NCBI GenBank assembly: GCA_001918745.1
Contig: MNGN01000064.1
Span: 1-34,596, forward strand
Length of the DNA: 34,596 nucleotides
Reading direction: 5' to 3'
DNA from: Crenarchaeota archaeon 13_1_40CM_3_52_17
Lineage (GTDB): Archaea; Thermoproteota; Bathyarchaeia; 40CM-2-53-6
The position numbers and the translations under genes were made by a program. The first letter of the stretch is position 1, and every line of letters begins with the position of its first letter. Below, one piece after another: positions 9,839-17,042 of the stretch. The notes under the pieces are model-generated. The model ran no database searches. It worked only from the letters and a program-made list of their open reading frames with translations, and was not told the origin of the DNA.

Positions 9839-12800
9839 ATGTCTCTCGCGACAATGGAAGAAGCTCACAAAGTAATCCAGAGCATCCGATTCACACTATT
9901 ATCACCCTCAGAGCTTCGAAAACTATCAGCAGTGGAAGTTCAGGCAGCAGACACTTACGATGAGGATGGAGTCCCGATTGTATCCGGGTTGATGGACGGC
10001 AGACTAGGGACTCTTGAGCCGCGCCAAAAGTGCAAGACCTGCGGCAACACCGCCTCCGCCTGCCCCGGGCACTTTGGCCACATTGAATTGGCTGAACCTG
10101 TTATCCATGTTAGCTTCGCAAAGCTCACTCATCGACTCCTCTCAATTACCTGCCGAAACTGCGGCAGAATACTGCTAAGTGAAGAGAAGATCGAGAAGTT
10201 CAAAGTACGCCACGCCGATCTCAAACAACGGCTCAACACCGTCCCCGACGCCTTCCTGGACGAGATCATCAAAGACGCCAAGAAGGCCCAGCAGTGTCCT
10301 CATTGTGGGCAAAAACAGTACCCAATCGAACATGGCAAGCCCACCACCTTCCACGAGATTGTGGCCGAGGGAGGCGCGGTGCGATTAACTCCCAGTACTG
10401 TCCGAGAGAGGCTTGAGAGAATTCCTGACGATGACCTCATTCTTCTCGGAATGGATCCGAAAGCCGCTCGACCCGAGTGGGCTGTCCTTCAAGTCATGCC
10501 CGTCCCTCCCGTCTCGGTCAGACCCTCAATAACTCTAGAGTCCGGCATCAGGTCGGAGGACGATCTTACTCACAAGCTCGTCGACATCATCAGGATCAAT
10601 CAGAAACTCCGCGAGGCACTTGAATCCGGAGTTCCAATCAACATCATTCAAGAACTCCACGAACTGCTCCAATACCACGTAACCACCTACTTCGACAACG
10701 AGGTCTCAGGCTTGCCCCCTGCGAGACACAGGTCGGGAAGGGCGCTGAAGACACTCGTTCAGCGATTGAAAGGAAAAGAGGGAAGATTCAGAGGCAACCT
10801 ATCTGGCAAAAGAGTTGACTTCTCAGCCCGAACAGTTGTATCCCCTGATCCGAATCTGGATATTAACGAGGTCGGAGTGCCCCTCGACGTTGCAAGCCGC
10901 CTAACGATTCCCGAGAAAGCTACTGACTACAATCTCGAAGAGATGAAGCGGCTTATCAGCAACGGCCCCGACACATATCCAGGGTCACTATACATTGTCC
11001 GTCCGGACGGCCGACGGGTCCGGCTAGAATTCGTCACAGATAGAAAAGTTGTCGCTGAAGCGCTTCAGCCAGGCTTCGTCGTCGAGAGACATCTCAGAGA
11101 TGGCGACATTGTGCTCTTCAACCGGCAACCGAGCCTGCACAGAATGTCCATCATGGCACACCGCGTCCGAGTCCTCCCCTACAAGACCTTCAGGCTCAAC
11201 CCAACCGTTTGCCCGCCATACAACGCGGACTTTGACGGTGACGAGATGAACCTCCACGTTCCACAAGGCGAAGAAGCCAGGACCGAGGCCCGCCTCCTCA
11301 TGCAGGTCCAGGACCAGATTCTCTCCCCAAGATACGGAGGGCCGATCATTGGAGCGATCCGAGACTCGCTGACCGCCGCATTCCTTCTAACGCAAAAGTC
11401 AACACTTCTGGATCGTCCGACTGTCTCGAAGCTACTTGCAGCAGCCGGCTTCGAGGGACCTATGCCAGAACCGGCGGTAGCAAAACCCGAAGAGAAATGG
11501 ACAGGCAAACAGATTTTCAGTATCGTCATTCCAAAGGGCTTCAATTTCGTCTCGAAATCCAACCTTTCAAGCTACTACAAGTGCGCGGATTGCGACAAGG
11601 GAGTTCTTCACGACTGCCCATATGATGCTTTCATCGTTATCAAAGACGGTGTCCTTGAGCAGGGCGTGATCGACAAGGCGTCTATCGGGGCTGAAAAATC
11701 AGAGAGCCTCTTCCATCGTATTGTCAAGGACTATGGGGCGGAGGATGCAAGAACGTTCCTCAACGCGGTTACAAAGCTTCTCGATCGATACATGGTTCTT
11801 CGAGGCTTCACATACGCGTTCGACGAACTCGAGATTCCCGCAGCCACCAAGGAAAAGATCGCAAAGGCCATTGCCAAGGCCGAAGAGAAAGTCAACGAGT
11901 ACATCGACAGCTACCGCAAAGAGACCCTGGAACGGTTGCCGGGCCAATCATTGGAAGAATCATTGGAGCTCTACATCATGAACGAGCTCTCTAGAGCGCG
12001 AGATGTAGCGGGCGAGTTCGCTGACCAGTACTTCCAGATGGACAACAGCGGCGTGATCATGAGCAGGGCGGGAGCCCGAGGGTCAACACTCAACATATCC
12101 CAGATGACCGCAAGCGTCGGCCAACAATCGATCAGGGGAAAGAGAATCCTCCGAGGATATCGCGGTAGAGCATTATCGTTCTTCAAACCCGGAGATGCAG
12201 GGGCGGCGGCTCGAGGATTCGTTTACAACTCCTACCGAGACGGGCTTGAACCCATCGAATTCTTCTTCCATGCGATGGGTGGCAGGGAAGGACTGGTGGA
12301 TACGGCGGTCAGAACTCAGCAGAGCGGATACATGCAACGACGCCTAATCAACGCGCTGGAACATCTCAGAGTCGAATACGATTCGACTGTCAGAGATTCC
12401 CGGGGCAACATTATCCAGGTCCGTTACGGCGAGGATGGTGTTGACACGGCGAAGAGTGATCACGGCAAGGCTGTGAACATCGATCGGCTCATAGAACGCA
12501 TTCGGCTTACAATGAAGAAGGGAACGGCGGCGACCAAGGAATACGTTGAGGACGAGGTGGATAAGGCGAACAGTACTCTCTCGCCCCTGATACTCAACAA
12601 GCTGCGCCAGAGCCTGGTAAACGCGAAACTGCCCAAGCCCGCCGTTGACGAGACAGTGTTAGAGGCAATAGAGAACTACAAACGCGCCTTGGTCGAGCCG
12701 GGCGAGGCTGCAGGAATTGTCTCCGCCCAGTCCATCGGGGAGCCTGGTACGCAAATGACGCTGCGAACCTTCCATTTTGCAGGAGTCCGAGAGCAAAACG

Positions 12801-13684
12801 TGACCTTGGGACTTCCAAGACTCATAGAGATCGTGGACGCACGCAAGATCCCCTCAACCCCAAACATGACGGTGTTCTTGGATGCGAAACACCGGGCGAG
12901 CAGAGAGAAGGCTCAGGAAGTAGCTACACAGCTCACCCATGCTACGCTGGGCGATATCGCCAGCACGTTCGAGTCCGATGTTACACGGATGAGGATCGAT
13001 GTAAAACTGAACCCGCAAGTGATGCGGGAGAGGGAGATTACCGTCCAGGACGTGCGGGATGCTGTAAAACCGCCGAATTGCGAGGTCAAAGTCGAAGGAT
13101 ACCATGTAGAAATCAAGTCGAAGGAGCTTGAGATCCCCCAGTTCAGACGCCTCGCAAGCAAACTCCTGGTCCATCACGTCAAAGGTTTGCCTGCAGTCCG
13201 AAGAGCTCTCGTTATCGAGGAGAAAGGTGAATGGATAGTTAGAACGGAAGGGTCAAGCCTCGCTTTGGCCTTTGAAGTCCCGGGCGTTGACACAAGCCGG
13301 ACAGTAAGTAACAACATCAACGAGACCGCTGTTGTTCTCGGAATCGAAGCAGCCCGCAATGTGATAATAAAAGAAGCGGTAGGAGTACTGGAGGAACAGG
13401 GTCTAGACGTAGACATTCGACACGTGATGCTAGTAGCCGATATGATGACCTCGTCAGGCGAGGTCCTCCAAGTTGGACGCCACGGTGTCAGCGGAGAGAA
13501 AGCGAGCACCCTTGCCAAGGCAGCCTTCGAGATCACAATTCCCACCATCGTAGATGCTGCCGTGAAGGGCATCGTAGACACTCTAAGGGGCGTTGCGGAG
13601 AACGTGATCGTCGGTCAACAAGTACCCATGGGCACAGGTCTCATAGAAGTCTCAATGTCCATGTCACGGAAAGGGAGCAAGTAG
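9839..13684 (+). CDS. rpoA: DNA-directed RNA polymerase subunit A, unsplit (A' and A'' in one 1281-aa ORF)
   Basis: CKTCGNTASACPGHFGHIEL zinc site, NADFDGDEMNLHVPQ active site (A'), and EAAGIVSAQSIGEPGTQMTLRTFHFAGV (A'' region) in one continuous frame; no intein signature inside. Confidence 0.98.
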   Translation: MSLATMEEAHKVIQSIRFTLLSPSELRKLSAVEVQAADTYDEDGVPIVSGLMDGRLGTLEPRQKCKTCGNTASACPGHFGHIELAEPVIHVSFAKLTHRLLSITCRNCGRILLSEEKIEKFKVRHADLKQRLNTVPDAFLDEIIKDAKKAQQCPHCGQKQYPIEHGKPTTFHEIVAEGGAVRLTPSTVRERLERIPDDDLILLGMDPKAARPEWAVLQVMPVPPVSVRPSITLESGIRSEDDLTHKLVDIIRINQKLREALESGVPINIIQELHELLQYHVTTYFDNEVSGLPPARHRSGRALKTLVQRLKGKEGRFRGNLSGKRVDFSARTVVSPDPNLDINEVGVPLDVASRLTIPEKATDYNLEEMKRLISNGPDTYPGSLYIVRPDGRRVRLEFVTDRKVVAEALQPGFVVERHLRDGDIVLFNRQPSLHRMSIMAHRVRVLPYKTFRLNPTVCPPYNADFDGDEMNLHVPQGEEARTEARLLMQVQDQILSPRYGGPIIGAIRDSLTAAFLLTQKSTLLDRPTVSKLLAAAGFEGPMPEPAVAKPEEKWTGKQIFSIVIPKGFNFVSKSNLSSYYKCADCDKGVLHDCPYDAFIVIKDGVLEQGVIDKASIGAEKSESLFHRIVKDYGAEDARTFLNAVTKLLDRYMVLRGFTYAFDELEIPAATKEKIAKAIAKAEEKVNEYIDSYRKETLERLPGQSLEESLELYIMNELSRARDVAGEFADQYFQMDNSGVIMSRAGARGSTLNISQMTASVGQQSIRGKRILRGYRGRALSFFKPGDAGAAARGFVYNSYRDGLEPIEFFFHAMGGREGLVDTAVRTQQSGYMQRRLINALEHLRVEYDSTVRDSRGNIIQVRYGEDGVDTAKSDHGKAVNIDRLIERIRLTMKKGTAATKEYVEDEVDKANSTLSPLILNKLRQSLVNAKLPKPAVDETVLEAIENYKRALVEPGEAAGIVSAQSIGEPGTQMTLRTFHFAGVREQNVTLGLPRLIEIVDARKIPSTPNMTVFLDAKHRASREKAQEVATQLTHATLGDIASTFESDVTRMRIDVKLNPQVMREREITVQDVRDAVKPPNCEVKVEGYHVEIKSKELEIPQFRRLASKLLVHHVKGLPAVRRALVIEEKGEWIVRTEGSSLALAFEVPGVDTSRTVSNNINETAVVLGIEAARNVIIKEAVGVLEEQGLDVDIRHVMLVADMMTSSGEVLQVGRHGVSGEKASTLAKAAFEITIPTIVDAAVKGIVDTLRGVAENVIVGQQVPMGTGLIEVSMSMSRKGSK

Positions 13685-13690
13685 AACCAG

Positions 13691-13999
13691 TTGGACGTGA
13701 ACAAACAGATCCGCATGGCCGTCAAGACCGGCAAGGTCGAGTTCGGAAGCAAGAACGCGCTCTCCAGCGCGTCCCTCGGGAGAGCTAAACTCCTAATCCT
13801 CGCAAGCAACTGCCCAACAGATTTTCGCGAGAACATCGTCTACGACGCGGAACAGTCAGAGGTTCCAGTCTACGTCTTCCAGGGCAGCAGCCTCGACCTC
13901 GGCGCGCTCTGCGAAAAACCCTTCCCAGTCGCATCAATGGTTGTTAAAGAACCCGGTGATTCAGAGGTCTTGAAGCTGGCTGAGAAGAATAATGAGTAA
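13691..13999 (+). CDS. rpl30e: Ribosomal protein L30e (TTG start)
   Basis: 102 aa; AVKTGKVEFGSKNALSSASLGRAKLLILASNCP...VPVYVFQGSSLDLGALCEKPFPVASMVV; canonical position after rpoA. Confidence 0.93.
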   Translation: MDVNKQIRMAVKTGKVEFGSKNALSSASLGRAKLLILASNCPTDFRENIVYDAEQSEVPVYVFQGSSLDLGALCEKPFPVASMVVKEPGDSEVLKLAEKNNE

Positions 14000-14276
14000 T
14001 ATTGCTTATCTTGCTGGGGTTTTGAAGGGAGATGGTTATCTCTATAGAGGACAGACTGGAAGGCCACGCTTTCAAGTCGAAACGATGTCCGCGAATTTCG
14101 CGGAGAAAATTGCGGGAGCGCTCAGAGCAATGGGGTACGTCCCTCGGATTGCGAGATATAGACACAGCCGGAAAAGCATGAGACTGCAACTAAATGTGCA
14201 TCGTTTAATCCGTGAGTGGAACCGCTCACTCGGGAATGTAAGGAATGTTTTTCATCATTTCATTTGGAGGATTTAG
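13992..14276 (+). CDS. LAGLIDADG homing-endonuclease-like small protein, apparently truncated (94 aa, one motif)
   Basis: YLAGVLKGDGYLYRG...GRPRFQVETMSANFAEKIAGALRAMGYVPRIARYRHSRKSMRLQLNVHRLIREW matches the LAGLIDADG helix plus following strands; ATG overlaps the rpl30e stop (ATGAGTAA). Confidence 0.72.
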   Translation: MSNIAYLAGVLKGDGYLYRGQTGRPRFQVETMSANFAEKIAGALRAMGYVPRIARYRHSRKSMRLQLNVHRLIREWNRSLGNVRNVFHHFIWRI

Positions 14277-14284
14277 AGCAAGTG

Positions 14285-14722
14285 ATGCTTCAGCCCAAGA
14301 TCAAGCTGACCAGTGAAGAAATGAAGTACATGGCTCTCTTCGAGAGCACTACAGGCGCCACCGTCCAAGACTGCCTGATCGACGAGAAGCTGGGACGCAT
14401 CATCTTCGTAGCAAAGCCCGGCGACATGGGACTCGCAATCGGAAAAGGCGGCAAGAACATCAACCAGCTGCGCAGGATGACAAGCCGACAGATCGAGGTT
14501 GTAGAGCACGCGGACACCCCGGAAGGCTTGATCCGGAACAGCCTCTCGCCGGCAAGGATCAAGGAGATCCGGGTAACGGAGAGGCCGGACAAGAAGATCG
14601 TGGTTGTTGAGGTTGACGCTCAGGATAAGGCGATAGCGATCGGAAAGAATGGTCGGACGATTGACAAGACACGCTTGCTTGTGAAGAGATACTTCGACAT
14701 CGACCACGTAGTCGTCCAGTAG
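14285..14722 (+). CDS. nusA: Transcription elongation factor NusA, archaeal (KH domains only)
   Basis: TVQDCLIDEKLGRIIFVAKPGDMGLAIGKGGKNINQLRRM and KAIAIGKNGRTIDKTRLLVKRYFDIDHVVV; SD-like GGAGG at 14266-14270. Confidence 0.92.
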   Translation: MLQPKIKLTSEEMKYMALFESTTGATVQDCLIDEKLGRIIFVAKPGDMGLAIGKGGKNINQLRRMTSRQIEVVEHADTPEGLIRNSLSPARIKEIRVTERPDKKIVVVEVDAQDKAIAIGKNGRTIDKTRLLVKRYFDIDHVVVQ

Positions 14723-15065: not shown

Positions 15066-17042
15066 ATGGCTAAGGCGTCTAGGGGGCTGTTCGCAGCCCA
15101 GAAGCTCCGGAAGAGGCGTAAGGAGTTCAGGTGGGCCTATGCACCCTACAAGCGACGAATGCTCGGCTTGGATTACAAATCCGACCCTCTCCAGGGAGCG
15201 CCGCAAGGAAAGGCCATTGTCCTAGAGAAGGTTGGGGTGGAATGCCGCCAGCCCAACAGCGCAGTGCGGAAATGTGTCGCCCCCGGGACAAATGTACTCT
15301 TGGCAGATGGAAACTCATCCCCAATTGAGAAGCTTGAGCAGCGCTGGCGAATTAGTGAAATTGCAACGTTTGATCCGCAGACGAGAGCTGTAGAAGGGTC
15401 GCCAATCGTAGATTTCTTCTCTCTCACCCAGTCGGAAGCCAGACAAATCGGAGCTCTAGAAGTTGTCACAGAAGAGACTGGACGCAGGATCGTCTGTAGT
15501 GCCGATCATCCCTTCTACACCTCGAACGGAATCGTTGACGCCCGAAGACTAGAGTTGGGAGACAAGGTCATAGTAATGCCCGTTCCGGGTGTCGAGAAGC
15601 AGCCATCGCGCGAACGTGTCCTCAACGACGAAGATGTCCTGAAAAACATTCCTCCTTCTTCAAGATCTAACCGTATCATTTCGGAACTCTATTCCAAAAG
15701 TCTCCTTCCATTAGCTTACGACAACGGGAAGATTGCTCAACTCGCACGAATTGTCGGCCACGTTTTCGGTGACGGAACGCTCAGCTATTCGAAAAGTGGG
15801 AATGGATGGACCGGAAAATTCGTCGCATCAGGTAATCCAGAAGAATTGGAAACCCTTGGCGCAGACCTGAGTTCACTCGGATTTCACTCAAGCCCTGTTT
15901 ACGAGGGAGAATCTACGAGCATAATCAACCTACACAGTGGCACCCAGCAAGTAATCTCTGGACACTATCACATCTTGGCTTCCACCTCAATCGTCCTGTT
16001 TACTCTGTTGAAATCACTTGGGGCACCGGTGGGTCGAAAATCTGATCTTACGTACATTGTCCCGCAGTGGATAATGAAAGCGCCTTTATGGGTCAAGAGA
16101 GAATTCCTGGCGTCTTTCTTTGGAAGCGAGCTGGAGAAACCTCGAGCCCGCGGAAGGAATGGAACCACTTTTCAAAGTCCGAGTTTCACCATCTGCAAGT
16201 CGGAGGACAACATTGAGAGCGGCAAGAGACTCATTAACACAATACGGTCGCTTCTCAAGGAATTCGGCGTTGAATCCTCCGAAGCTTCGATGAAACCTTC
16301 CGTCATCCGACGCAACAACGTGAAATCGTTCCGACTCACAACATACGTCGATTCAGGCTTCGAGAATCTTCTCTCGCTCTTTGGAAAGATAGGCTACAGG
16401 TATCAGAAGACCAGAGAAACTTTCTCCCGATATGCCTACGAATACCTTCTAATGAGAAAGCGTCGAATAGAACGCGCCAAGGAAGCGTACAGTCGTACCC
16501 TCGAGCTGAGGGCCAAAGGTCTCACCATCAAGCAGGTTTCTGAAAGGCTACGAGATGAAGGATACGATTTTGGGAGAGGCGTTGTCAATTCCTGGGCCTC
16601 GGTTGGAGTCAAAAGAACCGAAAGGCTGGGCTCCACAGCTCGTATCGGTCCTCCCTTCGCGGAGTTCGTCCGGCAACAGTCAGACTTGAACGACGGTCTC
16701 GTATGGGAAACTATTGCAGAGGTCAAGCGGTCCAACGAAAATCGATTATTGGACCTTACAACCGCCAGTAACAATCACAACTTCTTCGCCAACGGCTTCC
16801 TCACCTCCAACTGTGTGAGGGCTCAGATCATAAAGAACGGAAAAACCGTAACGGCCTTTCTTCCTGGCGATGGAGCGTTGAACTTCATAGACGAACATGA
16901 CGAGGTTGAGATTGAGGGCATTGGTGGTGCCGAGGGTAAGGCGTACGGTGACTTACCAGGAACACGATATCGCGTCTTCACTGTTAACGGTGTCAGCCTT
17001 GATGCCCTATTGAAGGGGAAGAAAGAGAAGCCTCGACGTTAG
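15066..17042 (+). CDS. rps12: Ribosomal protein S12 (uS12) precursor interrupted by an intein; likely ATG start at 15066 ([23 protein letters not shown])
   Basis: Extein halves ...[22 protein letters not shown] and [39 protein letters not shown]...GKKEKPRR join to a normal 145-aa archaeal S12. Confidence 0.95.
15273..16811 (+). mobile_element. Intein (513 aa) with LAGLIDADG/DOD homing endonuclease domain inserted in S12
   Basis: Begins [53 protein letters not shown] (block B-like); [15 protein letters not shown] and [14 protein letters not shown] (DOD motifs); ends [22 protein letters not shown] followed by extein Cys; in frame throughout, and removal restores S12. Confidence 0.95.

Follow-up and report, generated by a model that had tools for sequence, protein, structure and literature searches.

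Probable remnant of a mobile LAGLIDADG homing endonuclease gene at the rpl30e-nusA junction of soil Bathyarchaeia

Introduction

Among described homing endonucleases, the closest counterparts of the 94-aa open reading frame (ORF) studied here are I-DmoI, which originates from an rRNA intron of an archaeon, together with related two-motif LAGLIDADG enzymes of archaea such as I-Tsp061I. The ORF aligns with the N-terminal half of these enzymes from before motif 1 to motif 2 and keeps the motif-1 acid, whereas it is devoid of their second half, lies between protein genes and outside any rRNA intron, and is broken in two of its three copies. In fungal mitochondria (cob, atp6), degenerate free-standing LAGLIDADG ORFs are flanked on one side by a host gene and on the other by a displaced copy of that gene's C terminus (PMC6279837). 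That arrangement resembles the present one in that the endonuclease ORF adjoins the 3' end of a host gene, the original tail of which lies beyond the insert, but the locus described here is on an archaeal chromosome, and its displaced tail amounts to about three codons, which form the end of the endonuclease ORF itself.

The homing cycle is known for introns and inteins (PMC1654191), and the operon considered here also holds an intein in the ribosomal protein S12 gene. Like the ORF, this intein is a LAGLIDADG homing element of patchy distribution, more similar between species than its hosts are; unlike the ORF, it is a spliced protein element that is whole at 513 aa, and the two show no close sequence kinship. 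The N-terminal LAGLIDADG domain of WhiA belongs to the same fold class as the ORF and gives a weak profile score and a weak fold match to it, in contrast to which the ORF has no helix-turn-helix (HTH), is not conserved, and has decayed in congeners.

Results

The 94-aa ORF and its flanking genes

Within the window (the whole stretch of DNA analyzed, 34,596 nt), the junction comprises the following features.

13691-13999, + strand: rpl30e, with a new tail AEKNNE (then stop) from the insertion (Pfam; comparison with congeners)
13987-14278, + strand: 292 nt of inserted DNA, flanked by the GCTGAGAA and CAAGTG of the empty site (comparison with 27 insert-free relatives)
13992-14276, + strand: 94-aa ORF, corresponding to the N-terminal half of a LAGLIDADG endonuclease with two motifs and stopping within motif 2
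14010-14036, + strand: LAGLIDADG motif 1 (LAGVLKGDG), with acid D14 kept and invariant in the alignment
14274-14276, + strand: TAG shortening the ancestral ORF (CAG at the equivalent site in genomes G017 and G014)
14285-14722, + strand: nusA, undisturbed (Pfam; site comparison)

The ORF, which begins MSNIAYLAGVLKGDGYLYRG and reads MSNIAYLAGVLKGDGYLYRGQTGRPRFQVETMSANFAEKIAGALRAMGYVPRIARYRHSRKSMRLQLNVHRLIREWNRSLGNVRNVFHHFIWRI in full, opens with an ATG overlapping the rpl30e stop (ATGAGTAA; TAA at 13997-13999), and 8 nt separate its terminal TAG from the nusA ATG. The upstream neighbor was identified by Pfam as L30e (Ribosomal_L7Ae/L30e, E 9e-17) and the downstream neighbor as archaeal NusA with KH domains (E 8e-20). 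Position, start overlap, and both flanking genes agree with a first-pass annotation made from the letters alone, and so does the close spacing to nusA, for which 9 nt had been claimed. GC3 was 0.46 in the insert ORF versus 0.61 to 0.75 in neighboring genes.

A LAGLIDADG_3 domain (PF14528) was detected at residues 4 to 63 (E 6.5e-5), with a score of 23.6 bits that lies just above the curated cut-off of 22.5, while NCBIfam and PHROGs gave nothing significant. When the protein was aligned with nine LAGLIDADG half-domains from relatives, its 94 aa spanned the whole N-terminal half and stopped, at HFIWRI, where the relatives enter motif 2 (e.g., HFVAGLIDAEG); moreover, a profile of this alignment compared with solved structures had I-DmoI as its top match (E 1e-22, residues 12 to 119). 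Based on where the alignment ends and on the profile match, the protein is by descent a two-domain I-DmoI-like enzyme truncated inside motif 2. The second motif and the C-terminal domain are absent, with no space left for them before nusA. The single motif and the truncation noted in the first-pass annotation hold, except that one full LAGLIDADG core is present and it is the other half of a two-motif enzyme that is lacking; the yardstick used there, a single-motif homodimer of roughly 160 aa, does not fit relatives that carry two motifs and run to about 200 aa or more. Set against homodimers of the I-CreI type, the ORF has one motif per chain, but it comprises 94 aa and the C-terminal subdomain is absent. 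AlphaFold2 run on the single sequence predicted, with low confidence (pLDDT 56), the order that was expected, H-E-E-H-E-E-H (H, helix; E, strand), and the Foldseek matches of this model (among them I-Tsp061I, the WhiA N-domain, and I-DmoI) were suggestive only, none being significant.

No paralogue of the ORF was detected in its own genome at E ≤ 10, no viral, phage, or plasmid source was found for it, and a search of the genome contigs for close relatives returned the G014 copy only. Paralogy with the S12 intein endonuclease was also considered and rejected (best E 0.12).

Occupied and empty sites among relatives

The comparison of this junction across related genomes, proposed with the first-pass annotation, was carried out on 30 genomes, including that of the window (G000), with nusA as bait; these are drafts, many of them incomplete. 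The junction was free of any insert in 27 (15 of the same genus, 2 of the same family, and 10 of the same order) and occupied in three, G000, G014, and G017, which are 3 of the 18 genomes of the genus and carry the insert at exactly the same place. In the 15 empty congeners the rpl30e stop overlaps the nusA start as TGATG (e.g., GCTGAGAACAAGTGATG, with L30e tail AENK), the L30e tails there being AENK, VENK, VEKK, or VAEKK, each followed by the stop. The insertion point lies in the last codons of rpl30e, and the location in an rpl30e-nusA spacer given earlier is right as to the two genes but not strictly as to a spacer. Short repeats (GAGAA / CAGAA) flank the insert, whose boundary is uncertain by a few bases because, in G014 and G017, a copy of AGAA occurs at either side.

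The three copies are in different states. The 292-nt insert of G000 holds the whole 94-aa ORF; that of G014 has suffered an internal deletion and a frameshift, leaving approximately the first 19 codons and a piece matching residues 69 to 94; and that of G017 has a larger deletion, leaving a 34-codon frame (MSNLSYLELVLKADGHLMNARNIFHHFSGRIQNK, then stop) in which the motif is ruined. Both ends of the insert are nevertheless retained in all three. In G017 and G014 the ORF continues as ...RIQN(K), and in G017 it terminates at a stop that overlaps the nusA ATG in just the manner of the L30e stop at empty sites of the genus. Comparison of the copies has shown that the ancestral insert ORF came to its end, still in frame, within the former tail of L30e, with the chain of stop/start overlaps preserved. 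An intact two-domain endonuclease at this site was not found among the genomes and sequences searched.

Insert history and host history

In the rpoB-rpoA tree (7.2 kb), G000 and G017 fell in a clade with the empty genomes G001 and G007, and G014 fell in a separate clade with the empty genomes G013, G015, and G004. A single clade of the three carriers was rejected by the AU test (p 2.4e-8 on rpoB-rpoA; 6.5e-5 on L30e plus nusA), while sisterhood of G000 and G017 was tolerated (p 0.42). Uncorrected synonymous differences per site in rpoA were 0.39 for G000-G017, 0.57 for G000-G014, and 0.53 for G014-G017, whereas over 96 alignable nucleotides the inserts differed at 13 (G000-G014), 19 (G000-G017), and 19 (G014-G017) positions (14 to 20%), far under the expectation for neutral DNA inherited with the host (p 6e-14 and 4e-5). 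Moreover, the G014 branch took 6 of 24 insert changes against 56% expected (p 0.003), a length too small to fit vertical descent. Changes specific to G000 in the comparable insert tail were, by eye and over few sites, non-synonymous or nonsense, the stop included, so nothing there points to purifying selection. Host sequence adjoining the insert showed no clear co-conversion tract.

The insert thus appears to have moved between species: in this small sample it combines exact insertion relative to empty alleles with a distribution and a divergence that depart from those of the host. The argument rests on three copies and 96 nt, and constraint on the retained ends could also give similarity. We consider it unlikely that a single ancient insertion in the ancestor of an 11-species subclade was inherited vertically, with about four precise losses and with deletions in G014 and G017, the ORF then being a remnant without recent movement and the low divergence of its ends reflecting constraint such as translational coupling to nusA. 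The flanking GAGAA / CAGAA repeats could permit precise loss, both ends persist in every copy, and the start region of nusA is itself little variable; vertical descent must, however, account for about four independent exact losses and for insert distances that depart from the host tree (p 0.003) and lie far under synonymous divergence.

The S12 intein and the LAGLIDADG load of the genus

Downstream of nusA lies a second LAGLIDADG element.

15066-17042, + strand: ribosomal protein S12 ORF, 718 aa, interrupted by an intein
15273-16811, + strand: S12 intein, 513 aa, whole, LAGLIDADG, at site PNSAVRK^CVRAQ

The rps12 gene was located in 17 genomes of the genus, of which four carry the intein (G000, G017, G014, and G004) and 13 do not. 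The pS between inteins was 0.21 for G000/G017 (host 0.39) and 0.09 for G014/G004 (host 0.32), the two pairs were saturated against each other (0.80), and the flanking extein codons diverged at about the host level. Similarity within pairs above that of the hosts, together with saturation between pairs, is evidence of recent homing: two intein lineages invaded the S12 site, and each has moved across species. As judged from these divergences, the rpl30e-nusA insert and the S12 intein, 1 kb apart, bear the same signature of excess similarity across species.

Transfer of both elements in one tract was not supported: the intervening nusA is at host-level or higher divergence (dS 0.80 for G000-G017), G004 has the intein without the insert, and the G014 intein is of another lineage than that of G000. 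G004 likewise breaks any perfect co-occurrence of the two.

LAGLIDADG_3 matches numbered 24 in G000, 32 in G017, and 28 in G013, with none in G001, G002, G007, or G012, and those of the genus mostly lie within long intein-like frames.

Discussion

A probable decaying homing endonuclease gene and its proposed course

In our view, the ORF is probably what is left of a free-standing LAGLIDADG homing endonuclease gene, one that passed from species to species and is now in decay. The LAGLIDADG_3 match, the 27 insert-free relatives, the truncation at motif 2, the non-monophyletic carriers, the low divergence of the insert relative to its hosts, the like signature of the S12 intein, the low GC3, and the richness of the genus in LAGLIDADG domains all support this reading, whereas the same 3' truncation in all three copies counts against it. 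A remnant of this kind was one of the two origins offered by the first-pass annotation, and it is this one that the empty sites, the two differently decaying congener copies, and the truncation at motif 2 support.

The insertion fell within the final codons of rpl30e, a place at which this gene ordinarily overlaps nusA, and L30e thereby gained a short new tail and a new stop overlapping the ATG of the insert. The ancestral insert ORF read on, in frame, through the former final codons of rpl30e, with its stop overlapping the nusA start, and both host genes are kept. The insert may then have spread between species by homing, in which empty alleles are cleaved and the element is copied during repair. 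Its C-terminal half would have been lost and decay is presumably under way, the G000 copy probably being inactive now as an endonuclease.

This locus illustrates how a selfish gene without a splicing element may settle between two essential overlapping genes with neither lost, by replacing the end of one gene and ending in frame in its old tail. Moreover, with three states of decay, empty sites, and, 1 kb off, an S12 intein that has also moved across species, the operon offers a natural setting in which to study the homing cycle of archaea that are not in culture.

Alternative explanations

The 3' truncation being shared by three copies, the form that spread would already have been half an enzyme, and such a truncated copy could have spread either by ordinary recombination or because the half was active as a homodimer. 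In the latter case, the mobile unit would be a 97-aa single-motif protein, equivalent to one half of an I-DmoI-like enzyme, which as a homodimer cuts the junction of rpl30e and nusA and homes between species of soil Bathyarchaeia, its start and stop overlapping both host genes; we regard this as distinctly improbable. To our knowledge, single-motif homodimeric homing endonucleases are around 160 aa, and a 97-aa form would be smaller than any of these. An active half is conceivable in view of the homodimeric enzymes engineered from monomeric I-DmoI that are cited in PMC3943268 (refs B107 and B108). If true, it would bear on the rise of two-motif LAGLIDADG enzymes from single-motif ancestors.

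The other origin offered at first, a domesticated WhiA-like DNA/RNA-binding protein translationally coupled to L30e, now seems very unlikely. The start does overlap the rpl30e stop, the weak fold matches include the WhiA N-domain, and WhiA_N gives a weak score (E 0.03; 14.8 bits, below the cut-off of 23.4); against this, 15 of the 18 genomes in the genus lack the ORF, its frame is broken in G014 and its motif ruined in G017, the tail changes specific to G000 are non-synonymous, stop included, and Pfam detects no HTH. The overlap behind the proposed coupling is thus real, whereas the regulatory role is not upheld, and the ancestral ORF overlapped nusA as well.

It is just as hard to credit an archaeal bulge-helix-bulge (BHB) intron in rpl30e with a decaying endonuclease ORF, whose splicing at the join GCTGAGAA^CAAGTG would restore the AENK tail. 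Flanks identical to the empty site and ends retained while the middle was deleted would suit such an intron, as would the provenance of I-DmoI, itself from an rRNA intron of archaea, and a CUGA/UCAG helix between the ends, which can be drawn but with its register off by one base; however, no motif with bulges of 2 to 4 nt was common to the three sequences at the junction, the inserts fold no better than shuffled sequence (z -1.6, +1.25, and -1.6), and there is no Rfam match. A group I intron or other known RNA element (no Rfam match at the gathering threshold in the whole window) and a chance ORF (two further species hold homologous remnants at this site) were rejected.

Other observations

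In many archaea, RNA polymerase subunit A is split into A' and A''. Here it is a single unsplit frame of 1,281 aa (9839-13684, + strand), colinear in nearly all congeners; the G002 gene (L096, near 6000) gave a three-piece match with about 20 residues missing, which suggests either a frameshift or a misassembly.

At the junction in congeners, an RNA hairpin (GGUCUUG/CAAGAUC; e.g., L032, 1465-1525) can arise from pairing of the end of rpl30e with the beginning of nusA, the nusA start codon lying in or near the loop, and z was -1.7, -4.1, and -1.2 in three sequences. In the window its arms are split by the insert (about 13955-13986 and 14279-14310). The first nusA codons vary little across congeners, silent sites included. 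The hairpin might aid translational coupling. A significant DNA palindrome at the insertion target was not supported.

Elsewhere in the genus, L004, L006, L072, L117, and L118 are free-standing ORFs of approximately 260 to 320 aa with, by eye, an apparent N-terminal HTH followed by two LAGLIDADG motifs.
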